Source: Pseudomonadota bacterium
Lineage (GTDB): Bacteria > Pseudomonadota > Gammaproteobacteria > Burkholderiales > SG8-39
Reading direction: 5' to 3'
Length of the DNA: 5,364 nucleotides
Assembly: GCA_021848555.1 (NCBI GenBank)
Contig: JAJZUN010000239.1
Location: 1-5,364 of the forward strand
Under the pieces are notes generated by a model. It ran no database searches, was not told where the DNA came from, and was given only the letters and a program-made list of their open reading frames with translations. The translations under genes and the position numbers were made by a program. This document shows, piece by piece, positions 1 through 5,364 of this stretch (its first letter is position 1; the number at the start of each line of letters is the position of its first letter).

Positions 1-883
1 ACACGCCTTTTACGGCCTGCACATAGCCGGCCAGGGCGGCGTCCACATTGGCCATGCGCTTGAGCAACTGACCGTAAAGGTCGCGGTCGCTCCACACCAA
101 TTCCACGCGTCCGGCGGCGAGCTTGGCCAGGTCCGCGCCGCCGGCCTTGGCGTGCCGTTCATACAGGTCGGTGCGCAGAAACAGCTTGGCGCGGATGCGC
201 CGCCAGCGGCGTGCATAGGCGGCCCAAAACGCCACCAGTCCACGCACCCCGGCCTCAATCAGCTTCCAGTCGCCGTCCCCGAGCTTGTCCAGTTCGTCGT
301 ACGTTACGAAGACAAATCGATTCTCTTTCTCCAGCCGTTCGTCCAGTCGATCCAGCGCCACGACGGGTTTTGTTGCAAGTTCGCGAAACGCTTGATATAT
401 GGAACTAATCTCCGCACCCTGTGGAGCGAACAGTGGTTCCAGACCGGCCTTTTCATCTACGCTCAACTGCGTCTTGAGGATGCGAACGAGATAGGCGAAC
501 CACAGTTCACGCAAGGCTTCCATGCTGTTGCCTTGGGCATGTATGAAGTTGCGCAGTCCGATCGCCTCGAATGTATCGCGGTCCGCCGGATACGCGCACA
601 ACCATTCCGAGACCCCGACCGGCAGGCGCACCGCCGGCGCGTAGACCTTCACCGCATCGAACAACGCAGCGTCCGTCAGCACGCGGGCGATCTCTGTCTT
701 GCCAGAGCCGCGCGGGCCCACCACCAGCACCACGTCCGGGTCGAGCAGACGCAAGTGCTCTGCTACGGGATAGTAGCCCGGCCCGATGCGATCTACGGCG
801 GCGCCTTCAGCCCGGCCCGCGCTACCAATGTTCTGCAACGCCTGTAACAGCGTGCGACGCTCTTCGTTCCACTGGCTGCTCAT
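1..883 (-). CDS. P-loop ATPase (signalling/STAND-like), C-terminal part beyond window
   Basis: The frame is open from ATG at 881-883 to the left edge, giving 294 residues without a stop. I translated it by hand. It has a Walker A motif GPRGSGKT (56-63) after the strand VVLVV, and a Walker B FVFVTYDELD (190-199) with D196 and E197 as likely magnesium-binding and catalytic residues. Further on are a KLFLRTDLYE segment (233-242), which resembles a sensor strand with arginine, and a VELVWSDRDLYGQLLKR segment (260-276). This layout recalls uncharacterised bacterial P-loop ATPases of the Sll1717/KAP/STAND type, in which a helical region separates the Walker motifs. I cannot place it in one family. 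The start has GGAG 8 bases upstream and overlaps the MinD-like gene's stop (ATGA), so the two products are probably made in matched amounts. Any effector or sensor domain would lie in the missing C-terminal part. Confidence 0.86.
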   Translation of the reverse strand, partial: MSSQWNEERRTLLQALQNIGSAGRAEGAAVDRIGPGYYPVAEHLRLLDPDVVLVVGPRGSGKTEIARVLTDAALFDAVKVYAPAVRLPVGVSEWLCAYPADRDTFEAIGLRNFIHAQGNSMEALRELWFAYLVRILKTQLSVDEKAGLEPLFAPQGAEISSIYQAFRELATKPVVALDRLDERLEKENRFVFVTYDELDKLGDGDWKLIEAGVRGLVAFWAAYARRWRRIRAKLFLRTDLYERHAKAGGADLAKLAAGRVELVWSDRDLYGQLLKRMANVDAALAGYVQAVKGV

Positions 884-2169
884 GTTTCGGGCTCCGTTAG
901 AAAGCGGCTCACGATACGCTCGACAATCGGTGGATAAGGCCCGCTGCAAAGAGCGTCGGCAACCTCGGCGATATCCCAAAAGCTCGCCAATTTGCTGTCG
1001 TAGTCCACGGGCATCGGTGCATGCGGCGCGTCCTGGCTGTCCTTGTCTTCGACTGTCCAGAAAGTGTCTTGGTCGGCTTCATCGTCGGCGAGGTAATAGC
1101 GCGCATCAAATTCTGCATCGGCACGACCGACAAATTGTGTCTTCGCAGCCTTGCCCAGATCGCCCGCAGGCACCATCGCTTGCACCAGGAGCACTTCGGC
1201 TTGCAGGCGGTTCTCCAACACCCGTGAGGTACCCAGGCGATCAAGCACGCGATTCAGCCCTTGCCAGCTCTGATCGTTTGTCGTTCCCAGCAGCACATGC
1301 AGATGCGCAATGCCGGAGAGCAATTGGCCTGCCGGCTCGGAAATGCCGGTGCGCGCATCCAACAGAATCCACCTTGGTTTCAGCTCGTCGCGCACGCGGG
1401 CGAGCAGCTTCCAGAGTCCGCTCTCGTGAGCTTCGGGGGCCTCTTCGAGATCAACCCGCGCCAGCTTGTCGGCGTAATGTTCGTCCATGTAGCCGGACGG
1501 AAAAACCACGATCTCGCCACCGCCCGATACGCGGTCGCAGCGATGGTAATAGTCGGAGAGCTGCGCCTCGACCGGCGCTCGTTCGAGCAGAAAATCGACT
1601 ACCCCCCAGCGGGCCGTCGTTCCCTCTGCGTCCGCCGAAAGCAGCCGGCCTATGCCCGGCGAATCCAGATCGAAATCAAGCACGCAAACACGCTCACCCA
1701 GGCGTGCCCGCTGGATGGCGAACGAGGCGAGCAGCGTGCTGCGGCCGAGACCGCCCTTGAACGAATAGAAAACGACGATGGGAGGTCCGTTATCGGGTGC
1801 AGTCCAGGGGGGATCGACCGGCTTGGTGAACCAGGCCGTGCGGCTGCGATGGCGGTTTAGGATGCGCAAGCGCGGCTCGTCGGCGTCGCCCCGCGCCATC
1901 TCCCATGCGGAGTCGTAGACCTTCCGGGTCACCGTATCGAGCTTCTCGATAGGCAACAACTCGTTTGCCCACCATGCGCCGCATCGGCTTGCCAGGTCTT
2001 GTTCAAGCCCGCTCGTATCGAGCCCGCCACAGGCCCACAGCGCCAATCGCAGTTTCCCGAACAGATCCACGATCAGCATCCCTTGAACCTTTGGCGGCTG
2101 AGCGGCGACCCAGGCGCTTGCCGCGCCAATGGCGGCTTTTTTGGCTTCGTCGAAATGAATGAATGGCAT
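880..2169 (-). CDS. MinD/ParA-like ATPase with KGGxGR variant P-loop and N-terminal extension
   Basis: A 429-residue SIMIBI-class P-loop ATPase. After a strand VVFYSF comes the deviant Walker A KGGLGRST (138-145), then the switch-type motif DFDLDSPG (165-172) and a Walker B strand WILLDARTG (267-275, D271). The first, signature lysine of ParA/MinD proteins (K138) is kept, but the P-loop lysine before Ser/Thr is arginine (R143). NCBI, as I recall, names such proteins 'KGGVGR-motif variant AAA ATPase'. Residues 1-125 form an extension rich in alanine, tryptophan and leucine that I cannot assign. No membrane segment is evident. The ATG at 2169 is supported by GGAG with 7-base spacing and by the TGATG overlap with the HEPN stop. 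The gene ends in an ATGA overlap with the next one. It likely acts as a nucleotide-dependent switch working with the neighbouring HEPN protein and ATPase. Plasmid or chromosome partitioning is unlikely, because there is no ParB gene or parS-like repeat here. Confidence 0.88.
   Translation of the reverse strand: MPFIHFDEAKKAAIGAASAWVAAQPPKVQGMLIVDLFGKLRLALWACGGLDTSGLEQDLASRCGAWWANELLPIEKLDTVTRKVYDSAWEMARGDADEPRLRILNRHRSRTAWFTKPVDPPWTAPDNGPPIVVFYSFKGGLGRSTLLASFAIQRARLGERVCVLDFDLDSPGIGRLLSADAEGTTARWGVVDFLLERAPVEAQLSDYYHRCDRVSGGGEIVVFPSGYMDEHYADKLARVDLEEAPEAHESGLWKLLARVRDELKPRWILLDARTGISEPAGQLLSGIAHLHVLLGTTNDQSWQGLNRVLDRLGTSRVLENRLQAEVLLVQAMVPAGDLGKAAKTQFVGRADAEFDARYYLADDEADQDTFWTVEDKDSQDAPHAPMPVDYDSKLASFWDIAEVADALCSGPYPPIVERIVSRFLTEPET
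892..895 (-). promoter_or_regulatory. Ribosome binding site of the second P-loop ATPase gene
   Basis: GGAG on the minus strand, 8 bases before ATG 883 and inside the end of the MinD-like gene. With the ATGA overlap it supports this start. Confidence 0.75.
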
Positions 2170-2618
2170 CAGATCACTCCATCAAGTCGCATCTGGGCGA
2201 CCGTTTCTCGATATACGGCATCGGCGATATTGCACCACGCCTGCGCGTCGCCCGGTGACATACTTGGCGACCGATAACGCATTTCCGGTTTCCATGCGCC
2301 GATAGCGGATGAGGGCACGCTGCTGGTAGTCGAACTGAAATAGCGAGCAGTTTTTGCGCCAGCTACAGAAGCCAGGGCAGCAACATTGCTGGCAAGCAGG
2401 TTCAAGTCATGGCCCCTCCGTCCCCAAGGGTTCGAACCGGAAGAGGGCACCCCCGTCTCATGCAACCACAAGCTCTTGAGTGCGCATTCCACCACATAGC
2501 CGCTCAGATACGCCGCACCATCGGCGCGTTTCTGTCCGAGCAAGATTTGCGCATCCAGCAGATGCTTGAGCGCGGCGTCGGGATGATCGTCACCTTGCGG
2601 GGTGCGCAGTCTGGACAT
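2169..2618 (-). CDS. HEPN-like domain protein, 149 aa
   Basis: This is a small, mostly helical protein that I assign to the HEPN superfamily, whose members are often RNases or nucleotide-binding partners in conflict systems. The support is a predicted first helix (about 12-29), the signature-like segment DGAAYLSGYVVECALKSL (33-50), a GHDLNLL segment (69-75), a PEMRYRSP segment (111-118) and a C-terminal helix (123-145). The usual catalytic R-x4-6-H is not present: H70 has arginines only two and one residues before the intervening glycine (R67, R68), so RNase activity is doubtful from sequence alone. The length is normal for a stand-alone HEPN protein. ATG at 2618 is preceded by GGAGG with 8-base spacing, inside the end of the methylase gene. 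The stop TGA shares its last base with the next start. It is likely a partner or effector of the downstream ATPases. A substrate-binding, non-catalytic HEPN or an antitoxin-like role are alternatives. Confidence 0.78.
   Translation of the reverse strand: MSRLRTPQGDDHPDAALKHLLDAQILLGQKRADGAAYLSGYVVECALKSLWLHETGVPSSGSNPWGRRGHDLNLLASNVAALASVAGAKTARYFSSTTSSVPSSAIGAWKPEMRYRSPSMSPGDAQAWCNIADAVYRETVAQMRLDGVI
2177..2180 (-). promoter_or_regulatory. Ribosome binding site of the MinD-like ATPase gene
   Basis: GGAG on the minus strand, 7 bases before ATG 2169 and inside the HEPN coding end. Together with the TGATG stop/start overlap it fixes the start and indicates translational coupling. Confidence 0.75.
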
Positions 2619-2621
2619 CGA

Positions 2622-5364
2622 CTAGGCCTCCCCTTTGTCGAATAGATCATCGGTGCCCGGCGCGGCGACGCGCGGCGATTTTCCGTCTTGCCGCGCCAGC
2701 CGGGTGATCTCCGGCCAGCTCTGCACCAGGCCGTTGTAGGCCATCGCCTCGAGCGCGCGCTTCTTGCGCTCGCACAGGGTGTAGAGGCGGTAGCACAGTT
2801 CGCGGGCGGTCTCGGCTCGGCTGCCGAGCTTGGCCACCAGCGCCGCCGCCGCGCCCTCGCCGCCGGCTTCGAGCACGCGGATCAACTGATGCACCATTTC
2901 CCAGACGGTGAGGCGAGTATCGGTGGTGGGGTCCCAGTCGGCGGGCAGCTCATGGGGTTTCAGCAGACGCACCTTGCCCGCCCTGGACACCAGAATATGG
3001 GCCTCGACCAGACCGGCCACGGCGGTGTTCTTGGACTTGGAGAGCTGTTCGGCGACGCCGTAATCGCCCTCAAGAAAACCGGTCTGCTCGAACCAGGTGA
3101 GCGCCCAGCGGCTGTCGGCGTCGAAGTCGCCCTCCTGCTCGGCTAGTGCTTCGTCGAGGGTCTGGTTGATCAGCGCCAGTGCAGCTCGCACCGAGAGCGG
3201 CTTGCCTTCGGCATCGAGCACCTTGGCGTAGCGAGTATAGACCGCCATGCCGGGGCCGATGGCTGCCTGCGCCAGATCCACCGGCGCGATGTTGCCCGCC
3301 TGCAGATGGCGCATCGCCTCAGGCAGCTCGGCTTTCAACGCGGCGACGAACTCGCGGCGGGTGGCGGTAGGCGCGTTGGCTGCGCGTTGGCGGCAGACGA
3401 GGACGATGCTGGAGGCTAATGCATTACGCAGTGTCTTGAGGGCACCACCCAGCTCGGTACGCATCGGCCAGGTGCCGCCGATGGCAAAGCCGGCCTCGAT
3501 GACGGCCGCCAGAAAGGTATCCCAGCCGGTATTCGTTGTGCCGTCCGCACCATCGCTCTCGGCCTGTTTGAATGCGTAATAGATAGTGACCGGGAACGCC
3601 GGATGGGCCTGCTCGGCGAGCCGATGCATAGCTTGGGTCATGCCATCCATGAAAAAAACTCCCGCTGAGTCCTTGTCTTGATGTCGGTAGGAAAAGGCAA
3701 CTAGCTCATCCGCCTTTGGAACGGCTAGAGTGGAAAAGAGGCTGGGGAAAATCGGTTTCAGGGAGTGACGTAGCCACACGTAGAAGAAGTCCGATAGGTC
3801 GGCGTATGGTACGTTGTCGTAGTAGGGCGGATCGGTACTGACAACCGGCAGCATGCCAGAGACACCCTCCGAGTTCTGAGCCGCAGCTTGCCACGCGTGC
3901 CCTGCTAATCCCGAACCCAAACCCGCTAATACTTTCGCACAGTCCGAGAAGGCTCCCTCCCAATCTCCTCCGGCACCAGCAAACGGATTACACTCGGGAT
4001 AGTCCCAGACCATCTGGATTGCTTGCCTGCCAAACGCCCGGCCAGTCTTTCCCTCAGGGGCTCTCCATATACCCAGCGTGCAGTGATAGGACGTAACCTT
4101 CGAGACGGTCTCTCCTAAGTATGTCGCCACCGCATCAGCATAGGCCAGTGCGCCGACTCCGCCGGCATCAATGCCCTTGCCGTCATCGTTCAACCCTGCA
4201 GAAAGAGCATCACGCTTCACCCGTTCGCGCACCTCTTGAACAAGATCCGAGAACGTCGACAGCAACACAAGTTGACGATCAGTATAGAGTTGTGAGAACT
4301 GTCCCATGCCATAGGGCAGCACACCGATGTACTGCGTGCTGCCGGAGATTACAATCTCCGGCTTCCACCCCGGATTTGCCTCATGCGCGACGGTCTCCAT
4401 CTCCTTGGTCGGGGATAGGTAGACCCGCCCGCGTTCGCCCTCGGCAACAATCGCCATCAAGCGTGCGCCCATGCGCCCTGCCTTGCCCTCGCCTTTGATG
4501 TAATCGCCCGAAATCGGCACGCCAGACATCAGGCAGAGAAAGTTAGCCCGCGCCAGCTTGGTGCCGTTCTTCGCGACTTCCGCATCTCTTGGTTTGCCCA
4601 GCTTCACCGTGAATCGGTAGCCGCCGCCTTCGATCACCGGCTCGACATAGGCCTCCTTGCCCGTCTTGGTCGAGAGCATGAAGGTGGAAGCGAGCGGCAC
4701 GTCGACGTTGGCAAAGGCCGGGTTGGGGCTTTTCACCGTGCGCGCCCACAACCAGGCGATGACGGTGAGCTTCTGGCCGACGTATTTCTTCAGGTCTGGC
4801 CGTTCCTCGACCATCGCCGCCGTGACCTCGAGCTTGGGGTAGAGGTGGCCGATGCGCTTTTCCGCCTCGTCACGCATCCACTGGCCGTAGTAGCGCACGT
4901 CCTCGGCGAGGCCCTGGGCGCCTTTCCACTCTTTGGCGAACATCGTGCCCTCTCCCCCGGCCCCTCTCCCGCCTGCGGGCGAGGGGGGGTGGACGGGTGG
5001 CCTGCCGGCGAACTTCGGCGGGATCTCGATCATCGCCTTGTTGATCAGCACCGCCACCGGGTTGAGGTCGGAGGCATGGCTCTCCAGCCCCAGCCGCTGC
5101 GCCTCCAGCGGCAGCGCGCCGCCGCCGGCGAAGGGGTCGTGAAAGCCGGGCAGTTTGAAGCGGTCGAACAGCTCCCTGGCGCGCGGATGGTCGGCGTTCT
5201 CGGCGCAGGTGTAGCGCCAGCTCTGCCAGATCTCGTCGCGCGCCTGCTGCAACACCTGCTCGTTGGTGGTGTTCTCCCACTTCACCAGTGCCTCGATGAT
5301 GCGGAACAGCCGCTGCCGCTCCTTCTCCTGCGCCTTCTCGGTCTTGAAGAGGTCCGGATGCGCC
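2622..5364 (-). CDS. DUF1156-family (COG1743) adenine-specific DNA methyltransferase, 5' end beyond window
   Basis: It probably methylates adenine N6 in DNA using S-adenosylmethionine. 913 residues are visible. Counting from the valine (GTG) codon at 5285 as residue 1, the SAM-binding motif I is DPFAGGG (50-56), followed by DLNPVAVLIN (73-82). The catalytic motif IV is DPPYYDN (485-491), followed by YADLSDFFYVWLR and later strands VTIYYAFKQ and SSIVLVCRQR. The order, SAM motif then about 430 residues then DPPY, is alpha-like, with the target-recognition region probably between them. The C-terminal third matches the family as I remember it. The frame stays open to the right edge and still reads family-like (AHPDLFKTEKAQEKERQRLF), so the GTG is internal and the DUF1156 segment lies outside. 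The stop is TAG at 2622-2624, 3 bases before the HEPN gene. Oddities are a repeat-derived insertion at residues 99-113, a low-GC middle, and loss of most candidate zinc-ribbon cysteines. The family call is confident; the role in defence is inference. Confidence 0.93.
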   Translation of the reverse strand, partial: AHPDLFKTEKAQEKERQRLFRIIEALVKWENTTNEQVLQQARDEIWQSWRYTCAENADHPRARELFDRFKLPGFHDPFAGGGALPLEAQRLGLESHASDLNPVAVLINKAMIEIPPKFAGRPPVHPPSPAGGRGAGGEGTMFAKEWKGAQGLAEDVRYYGQWMRDEAEKRIGHLYPKLEVTAAMVEERPDLKKYVGQKLTVIAWLWARTVKSPNPAFANVDVPLASTFMLSTKTGKEAYVEPVIEGGGYRFTVKLGKPRDAEVAKNGTKLARANFLCLMSGVPISGDYIKGEGKAGRMGARLMAIVAEGERGRVYLSPTKEMETVAHEANPGWKPEIVISGSTQYIGVLPYGMGQFSQLYTDRQLVLLSTFSDLVQEVRERVKRDALSAGLNDDGKGIDAGGVGALAYADAVATYLGETVSKVTSYHCTLGIWRAPEGKTGRAFGRQAIQMVWDYPECNPFAGAGGDWEGAFSDCAKVLAGLGSGLAGHAWQAAAQNSEGVSGMLPVVSTDPPYYDNVPYADLSDFFYVWLRHSLKPIFPSLFSTLAVPKADELVAFSYRHQDKDSAGVFFMDGMTQAMHRLAEQAHPAFPVTIYYAFKQAESDGADGTTNTGWDTFLAAVIEAGFAIGGTWPMRTELGGALKTLRNALASSIVLVCRQRAANAPTATRREFVAALKAELPEAMRHLQAGNIAPVDLAQAAIGPGMAVYTRYAKVLDAEGKPLSVRAALALINQTLDEALAEQEGDFDADSRWALTWFEQTGFLEGDYGVAEQLSKSKNTAVAGLVEAHILVSRAGKVRLLKPHELPADWDPTTDTRLTVWEMVHQLIRVLEAGGEGAAAALVAKLGSRAETARELCYRLYTLCERKKRALEAMAYNGLVQSWPEITRLARQDGKSPRVAAPGTDDLFDKGEA
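2627..2633 (-). promoter_or_regulatory. Ribosome binding site of the HEPN gene
   Basis: GGGGAGG on the minus strand, with the GGAGG core ending 8 bases before ATG 2618. It lies inside the last methylase codons, so terminating ribosomes can reinitiate at once. It supports the chosen start. Confidence 0.8.
3481..4380. other. Lower-GC tract within the methylase gene
   Basis: Hand counts over 60-base blocks give mostly 48-60% GC here (isolated blocks 63-65%). The flanking parts of the same gene are about 62-82% (for example 2821-2880, 3241-3300 and 5101-5160). The tract codes for residues of about 302-602 from the GTG at 5285. That covers the region before the DPPY motif, the motif itself and the stretch after it. 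A recombined central segment is a plausible cause; relaxed codon use is another. Confidence 0.55.
4341..4362. repeat. Perfect 10-bp inverted repeat inside the methylase gene
   Basis: GCCGGAGATT (4341-4350) and AATCTCCGGC (4353-4362) are exact reverse complements separated by AC. As mRNA it could fold into a strong stem of about 8 pairs with a 6-base loop. It codes for KPEIVISGS in the methylase, within the lower-GC central tract. There is no T-run and it sits mid-gene, so it is not a classic terminator. Confidence 0.6.
4947..4991 (-). repeat. REP-like GC-rich palindromic element inserted in-frame in the methylase
   Basis: The plus strand shows CCCTCTCCC twice (4948-4956 and 4962-4970). A hairpin follows: arm 4961-4972 pairs with arm 4975-4986 (11 of 12 positions, mismatch at 4967/4980, two-base turn). 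This C-run/CTCTCCC/GAGGGG pattern is that of short palindromic repeats dispersed between genes in many beta- and gammaproteobacteria. Here it is read through as HPPSPAGGRGAGGEG (residues 99-113 from the GTG at 5285), a low-complexity peptide unlike the surrounding enzyme, between IEIPPKFAG and the EWKGAQGLAED segment. It keeps the reading frame, so the enzyme may tolerate it as a surface loop. The repeat-family assignment is from memory of the pattern. Confidence 0.7.

Follow-up and report, generated by a model that had tools for sequence, protein, structure and literature searches.

Hma, a described system with which the locus studied here can be compared gene by gene, is presented in the accessible part of PMC8565338 as an operon of three genes, for a helicase, a methyltransferase and an ATPase, that is found in 26 phyla and whose methylase is of the m5C type. 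The same genes are treated in the accessible part of PMC12839542 as BREX-related systems centred on DUF499, with an N6-methylase and with a HEPN domain that is often fused to the ATPase; for the helicase, that paper cites experimental support. PADLOC-DB 2.0.0, the profile library from which our gene identities are taken, gives HmaB the label DNA-adenine methylase, and it also contains PDC-M28, a candidate of three genes that we refer to as A, B and C. PDCs are candidates detected through 'guilt-by-embedding', as set out in the accessible part of PMC12988326. In the open papers searched we found no paper on PDC-M28 and no mention of KGGVGR, and the accessible part of the DefensePredictor paper (PMC13092281) contains no system of this make-up.

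The window, by which we mean the whole stretch of 5,364 nt that was analysed, contains four open reading frames, all on the minus strand and separated by junctions of +3, -1 and -4 bases, an arrangement that the earlier note had described correctly. The two outer genes run past the window edges, hmaB at the window end and C at the window start. That note had also assigned each gene its own ribosome binding site; Shine-Dalgarno-like stretches do lie upstream of A, B and C, so this part of the claim stands for the three small genes, while the start region of hmaB falls beyond the window. The features are as follows.

2..883, minus strand: PDC-M28 C, ORC/Cdc6/STAND-like P-loop ATPase, 3' end beyond the window (PADLOC PDLC04561, 94 bits)
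880..2169, minus strand: PDC-M28 B, KGGVGR-motif variant MinD/ParA-like ATPase, 429 aa (PADLOC PDLC04559, 179 bits)
2169..2618, minus strand: PDC-M28 A, HEPN-like, 149 aa (PADLOC PDLC04558, 46 bits)
2622..5363, minus strand: hmaB, DUF1156-type DNA methylase of the Hma/DUF499 system, 5' end beyond the window (PADLOC HmaB PDLC00660, 1382 bits, E=0)
4946..4986, no strand assigned: copy of a dispersed, partly palindromic repeat with an inverted repeat, in frame inside hmaB (14 further matches in the nearest genome compared, G001)

The window methylase is HmaB: the next PADLOC families, MTase_II and DUF1156_MTase, reach only 86 and 61 bits, and the NCBIfam model NF042963 scores 77 bits, below its cut-off of 1000. 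The protein is 70-79% identical to the HmaB proteins of three other loci (L009, L010 and L011) and is about 58 N-terminal residues short relative to the Ferrovum homologue. Kinship with the pglXI methylase of type 3 BREX, proposed earlier, did not hold, as PglXI is absent among the 13 PADLOC families that match the window methylase at E up to 1; the HmaB of L009 gives only a weak PglXI match (1.6e-4). None of the window's four genes is brxC, pglZ, pglW or pglX, in agreement with the earlier observation that no BREX core gene is visible, and the suggestion that the methylase marks self DNA fits Hma. The three small genes match the PDC-M28 A, B and C models in order, at 46, 179 and 94 bits; compared with the models only, the window triad is the same in all three genes and in their order, with no tested difference. 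The four genes are thus of defence type, as had been proposed. Since the window matches both HmaB and the PDC-M28 models, PADLOC covers the host system as well as the cassette embedded in it, and the arrangement is mostly a known one, namely a catalogued system with a catalogued embedded candidate, rather than the single undescribed module that the earlier note had seen in it.

A scan of genome contigs returned two loci whose B proteins are 85% and 72% identical to that of the window. In Ferrovum myxofaciens P3G (L010), HmaA is followed by a 117-aa open reading frame that matches AbiLii weakly, and then by HmaB, A, B, C and HmaC. A proteobacterial metagenome-assembled genome (L011) has GajB and GajA on the other strand, followed by AbiLi, AbiLii, HmaB, A, B, C, HmaC, PDC-S28 and one gene resembling DrmC. 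Just before the GajA/GajB-AbiL genes, the edge of the examined stretch still takes in the end of HmaA. Both HmaC proteins carry an N-terminal HEPN_Swt1 domain with a canonical motif, RNGWAH in L010 and RNKWAH in L011. The two nearest relatives with readable flanks therefore show the triad inside a complete Hma system, which goes against the single undescribed module proposed earlier. The likeness to Hma consists of the HmaB in the window, to which the relatives add hmaA and hmaC, the latter with DUF499 and a Swt1-like HEPN (compare the accessible parts of PMC8565338 and PMC12839542). The difference lies in the three extra genes that follow hmaB in the window and occupy the hmaB-hmaC interval in the relatives, whereas the operon as described in those parts has three genes. 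From these comparisons we conclude that the window is very probably the middle of an Hma operon (DUF499-centred, closest to 'type 1 BREX-related') with an embedded autonomous PDC-M28 cassette. That hmaA and hmaC would flank the window copy as well is suggested by the relatives, with about 70-85% identity between the matching proteins. As a separate observation, L011 has Gabija, AbiL, PDC-S28 and DrmC-like genes in or beside one Hma operon (759-6687 and 16457-20184), a nest of defence genes.

To place the interval between hmaB and hmaC in a wider sample we surveyed 399 genomes of the order for HmaB, which is found at 22 places in 19 of them. Seventeen of these places were examined (15 retrieved stretches, Ferrovum contig C55, which is L010, and the G001 locus, L009), the five that are partial or split being left out. 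The M28 triad is present at only one of the 17, Ferrovum C55; tblastn with A, B and C gave no match in the 15 retrieved stretches, and the Ferrovum genome itself has a second Hma locus without M28. L011, which came from a separate search, brings the number of Hma loci to 18; hmaB and hmaC can both be read in 17 of them, L139 ending before hmaC. The gaps between the two genes are estimates from tblastn ends, some of which are negative because the HmaC start aligned elsewhere. Cargo was seen in the slot as M28 in two loci (L010 and L011), a nucleotidyltransferase (MNT) with HepT in one (L009), PDC-S01 in one (L132) and a HATPase/DUF4325 protein in one (L133); eight further gaps are of about 0.4 kb or less, and the remaining 4 of the 17 loci have a slot of 0.6-1.3 kb with no coding-strand open reading frame of at least 140 aa. 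The G001 cargo (L009 169-799) includes a HepT RNase with an RNRLVH motif, and HEC-01A/B-like genes lie upstream of hmaB in the same genome. The hmaB-hmaC slot is polymorphic, and A-B-C is very probably an autonomous cassette in that slot. The claim of a novel four-gene system thereby gives way to a known restriction-like operon whose polymorphic slot takes up interchangeable candidate defence cassettes. The HATPase/DUF4325 protein in the slot of L133 (5554-6609) is without a PADLOC match.

The cassette was then followed away from the methylase. Using profiles grown from the window's clade, we looked for A, B and C at 45 loci and found complete triads in 37, all on one strand and in the order A-B-C. 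The eight loci left out of this count are L057, which lacks A only, and L060, L089, L090, L092, L094, L095 and L096, which lack C and have lower B scores. For 31 of the 37 triads the examined stretch contains neither an Hma nor a BREX-2 gene, although at some of these loci the absence of Hma is weaker evidence because the contigs end near the triad (e.g. L043, L052); two triads are inside Hma, one is beside it and three are inside BREX type 2. When 398 genomes were surveyed with the B model, 28 had matches; 17 of these genomes hold 18 full-length places (L042-L059), and the stretches examined there contain neither Hma nor BREX-2 genes; from the 28, the full-length places of the 17 and some of the weaker places were examined. 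In separate searches, the window's own clade was seen in one of 398 genomes (Ferrovum) and in none of 299, the second an empty result that shows little because it has no positive control. With the window B as query, nine of 399 genomes matched, including Ferrovum (Hma) and L081 (BREX-2). Three of these nine also have an HmaB match (G475, G580 and G581), two of them partial or split, and the two genes share one operon only in G580, which is too few for a statement on enrichment. Twenty-seven plasmid records have a B match, among them all 11 records with a C match; eight of the 27 were opened, picked for coverage and variety and not at random. On a Calothrix plasmid (L078), the triad lies beside divergent HmaA and HmaC genes, with no HmaB detected in the examined stretch. 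Two viral contigs gave partial matches, and nothing in their examined stretches matched Hma, A or C; phage records gave no match.

These counts bear on the reading of the four genes as a single new defence system whose methylase marks self DNA and whose two ATPases gate a HEPN effector. The tight junctions on one strand speak for it, as does the fact that the same four genes adjoin one another in the window, L010 and L011, which belong to one clade. Against it, 31 of 37 complete triads are found without an Hma or BREX-2 gene in the examined stretch, and of the 22 HmaB places, spread over 19 of 399 genomes, only one of the 17 examined has the triad. We therefore regard a four-gene system as highly improbable. 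The small genes occur together mostly without the methylase and among mostly ordinary neighbours, contrary to the tie proposed earlier; the methylase is most likely not part of the triad module, and the triad is mostly not part of Hma.

The three BREX type 2 loci (L079, L081 and L098) have the triad between pglX and pglY (DUF6079), a position equivalent to the hmaB-hmaC slot; they differ from the window, which has no pglZ, pglW or pglX and whose methylase is HmaB. In a tree of 39 B proteins, rooted at the midpoint only, the window, L010 and L011 group together in a single clade (100/100), which the B protein of the Calothrix plasmid joins weakly (76/29 for the four), on a branch flagged as long. 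The three BREX-2 sequences are elsewhere in the tree, in a clade (100/99) with the stand-alone L080 and L084. The simplest reading is that the triad became associated with other systems at least twice separately, once with Hma and once with BREX-2.

The A protein falls just under the Pfam HEPN cut-off; a structure model (pLDDT 94.4), for which HEPN entries rank first, indicates that a HEPN fold is present. Conserved over 38 aligned sequences are E44, K48, H70, W109, R114 and Y115. There is no conserved RX4-6H motif, the best pair of R and H columns being common to at most 12 of the 38, and the sole string of this kind in the window protein, RTPQGDDH from residue 5, lies ahead of the first long helix. 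A is thus predicted to share the fold of canonical HEPN RNases and differs from them in lacking a conserved RX4-6H, unlike the HmaC of L010 and L011 and the HepT of L009, which have the motif; an RNase role for A is uncertain because the canonical motif is absent. B matches NCBIfam NF047398, the KGGVGR-motif variant ATPase, with 151 bits against a cut-off of 90. Of the 489 residues of C, 294 are inside the window, and P0269 is the full-length version; the homologue entries P0121 and P0269, both assigned to the window itself, point to a contig of about 19.5 kb. C scores 65 bits against the NCBIfam model for Sll1717-family ATPases, below the cut-off of 75, and straddles the Pfam cut-off for AAA_16 (32.6), with 32.9 for the window part and 32.4 at full length; its structure model (pLDDT 86.7) has BrxC as the first Foldseek match. 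B and C are a single open reading frame in 4 of the 37 complete triads. In four loci C forms a single protein with a calcineurin-like metallophosphoesterase and a NACHT domain (L047 7515-12590; L050 3978-9302; L051 10606-15978; L052 10156-14142). In the open papers searched we found no earlier report of the BREX-2 slot, the non-canonical HEPN or the C-NACHT fusions; together with the stand-alone triads, the slot, the absent RX4-6H and the metallophosphoesterase-NACHT fusions offer handles on an uncharacterised candidate. The fusion could possibly be an NLR-like super-module.

The make-up of the triad recalls a toxin-antitoxin system, with the HEPN protein as toxin, the KGGVGR ATPase as antitoxin and C as trigger. 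The accessible part of PMC3710099 proposes a dyad of HEPN and ParA/Soj-like proteins as a likely toxin-antitoxin pair, and in the window, too, a HEPN gene adjoins the gene of a ParA/MinD-type ATPase; moreover, the slot of L009 holds MNT and HepT, a toxin-antitoxin kind also named in that part of the paper. The dyad, however, uses the MAE_18760 HEPN family, listed there with RX4-6H, whereas A has no such motif, and the window has a third gene, for an ATPase. Among the 38 examined loci in which A and B occur together, 37 also have C, which is missing only from L092, so that a third gene seems to be needed beside A and B. We consider the toxin-antitoxin reading possible and somewhat unlikely.

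We also asked whether the triad could be a house-keeping or regulatory ATP-driven switch, unrelated to defence, that hitch-hikes in defence operons. The neighbour set comprises 86 proteins of at least 140 aa within two genes of 29 stand-alone loci (L057 included; L091, L093 and L101 excluded); here, as in the slot, open reading frames were called mechanically and some are possibly spurious. Among the 25 of 65 PADLOC families listed, strong defence matches (E up to 1e-20) are few: mad3 for three proteins and PtuA, GajB/RTasHel and ATPase_I-A for one each. Among the 25 of 76 Pfam families listed, the neighbours are largely metabolic, the exceptions being AAA_21 (4) and phage integrase (2). Both results speak for a house-keeping switch, and the neighbourhood gives no support for a defence role of the stand-alone copies because the neighbours are mostly ordinary. 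Against such a switch stand the embedding of the triad in Hma and BREX-2, its scattered distribution (full-length places in 17 of 398 genomes, 18 in all; matches in 9 of 399 genomes), the integrases near stand-alone plasmid copies and the fusion of C to NACHT and metallophosphoesterase, and we judge this explanation distinctly unlikely. Support for a defence role comes from the embedding and the fusions, and not from the stand-alone neighbourhoods.

Returning to the embedded cassette, we propose the following mechanism, the Hma part of which follows the accessible parts of the two papers on that system. The operon would be ordered hmaA, other embedded genes, hmaB, A-B-C and hmaC. Hma would act in the manner of restriction-modification, HmaB methylating self DNA while the HmaA helicase and the HmaC DUF499 ATPase, with its own N-terminal Swt1-like HEPN, would act on unmarked DNA. 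PDC-M28 would be a spare cassette in this operon that works separately from Hma as an ATP-gated abortive module, in which B and C may form one sensor-switch complex and A may be the effector or RNA-binding arm. A could cleave RNA through a non-canonical site around the invariant H70 and R114-Y115, or it could bind RNA without catalysis, and the cassette would presumably fire upon infection. This account of PDC-M28 as an abortive ATP-gated module is plausible, and we place it a little short of probable.

A narrower version, which we offer as speculative and rather unlikely, is that PDC-M28 is a plug-in tuned to ATPases of the BrxC/DUF499 type, that is, a fail-safe that would read the state of the host ATPase and fire a non-canonical HEPN when restriction fails. 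It is suggested by the position of the triad, which in both Hma and BREX type 2 sits after the methylase and right before the BrxC/DUF499-type ATPase, and by C itself, an ORC/Cdc6-like ATPase with BrxC as first Foldseek match. If true, it would reveal the way in which back-up effectors are coupled to ATPases of the BrxC family.

A search for non-coding RNA families found none at gathering scores. The repeat copy at 4946-4986 contains an inverted repeat of 12 nt (4961-4972 and 4975-4986, 92% complementary), and its 14 further matches in G001 are all outside the contig that carries hmaB in that genome. The equivalent site in the HmaB of L009 has a different, proline/glycine-rich insert in place of the dispersed repeat.
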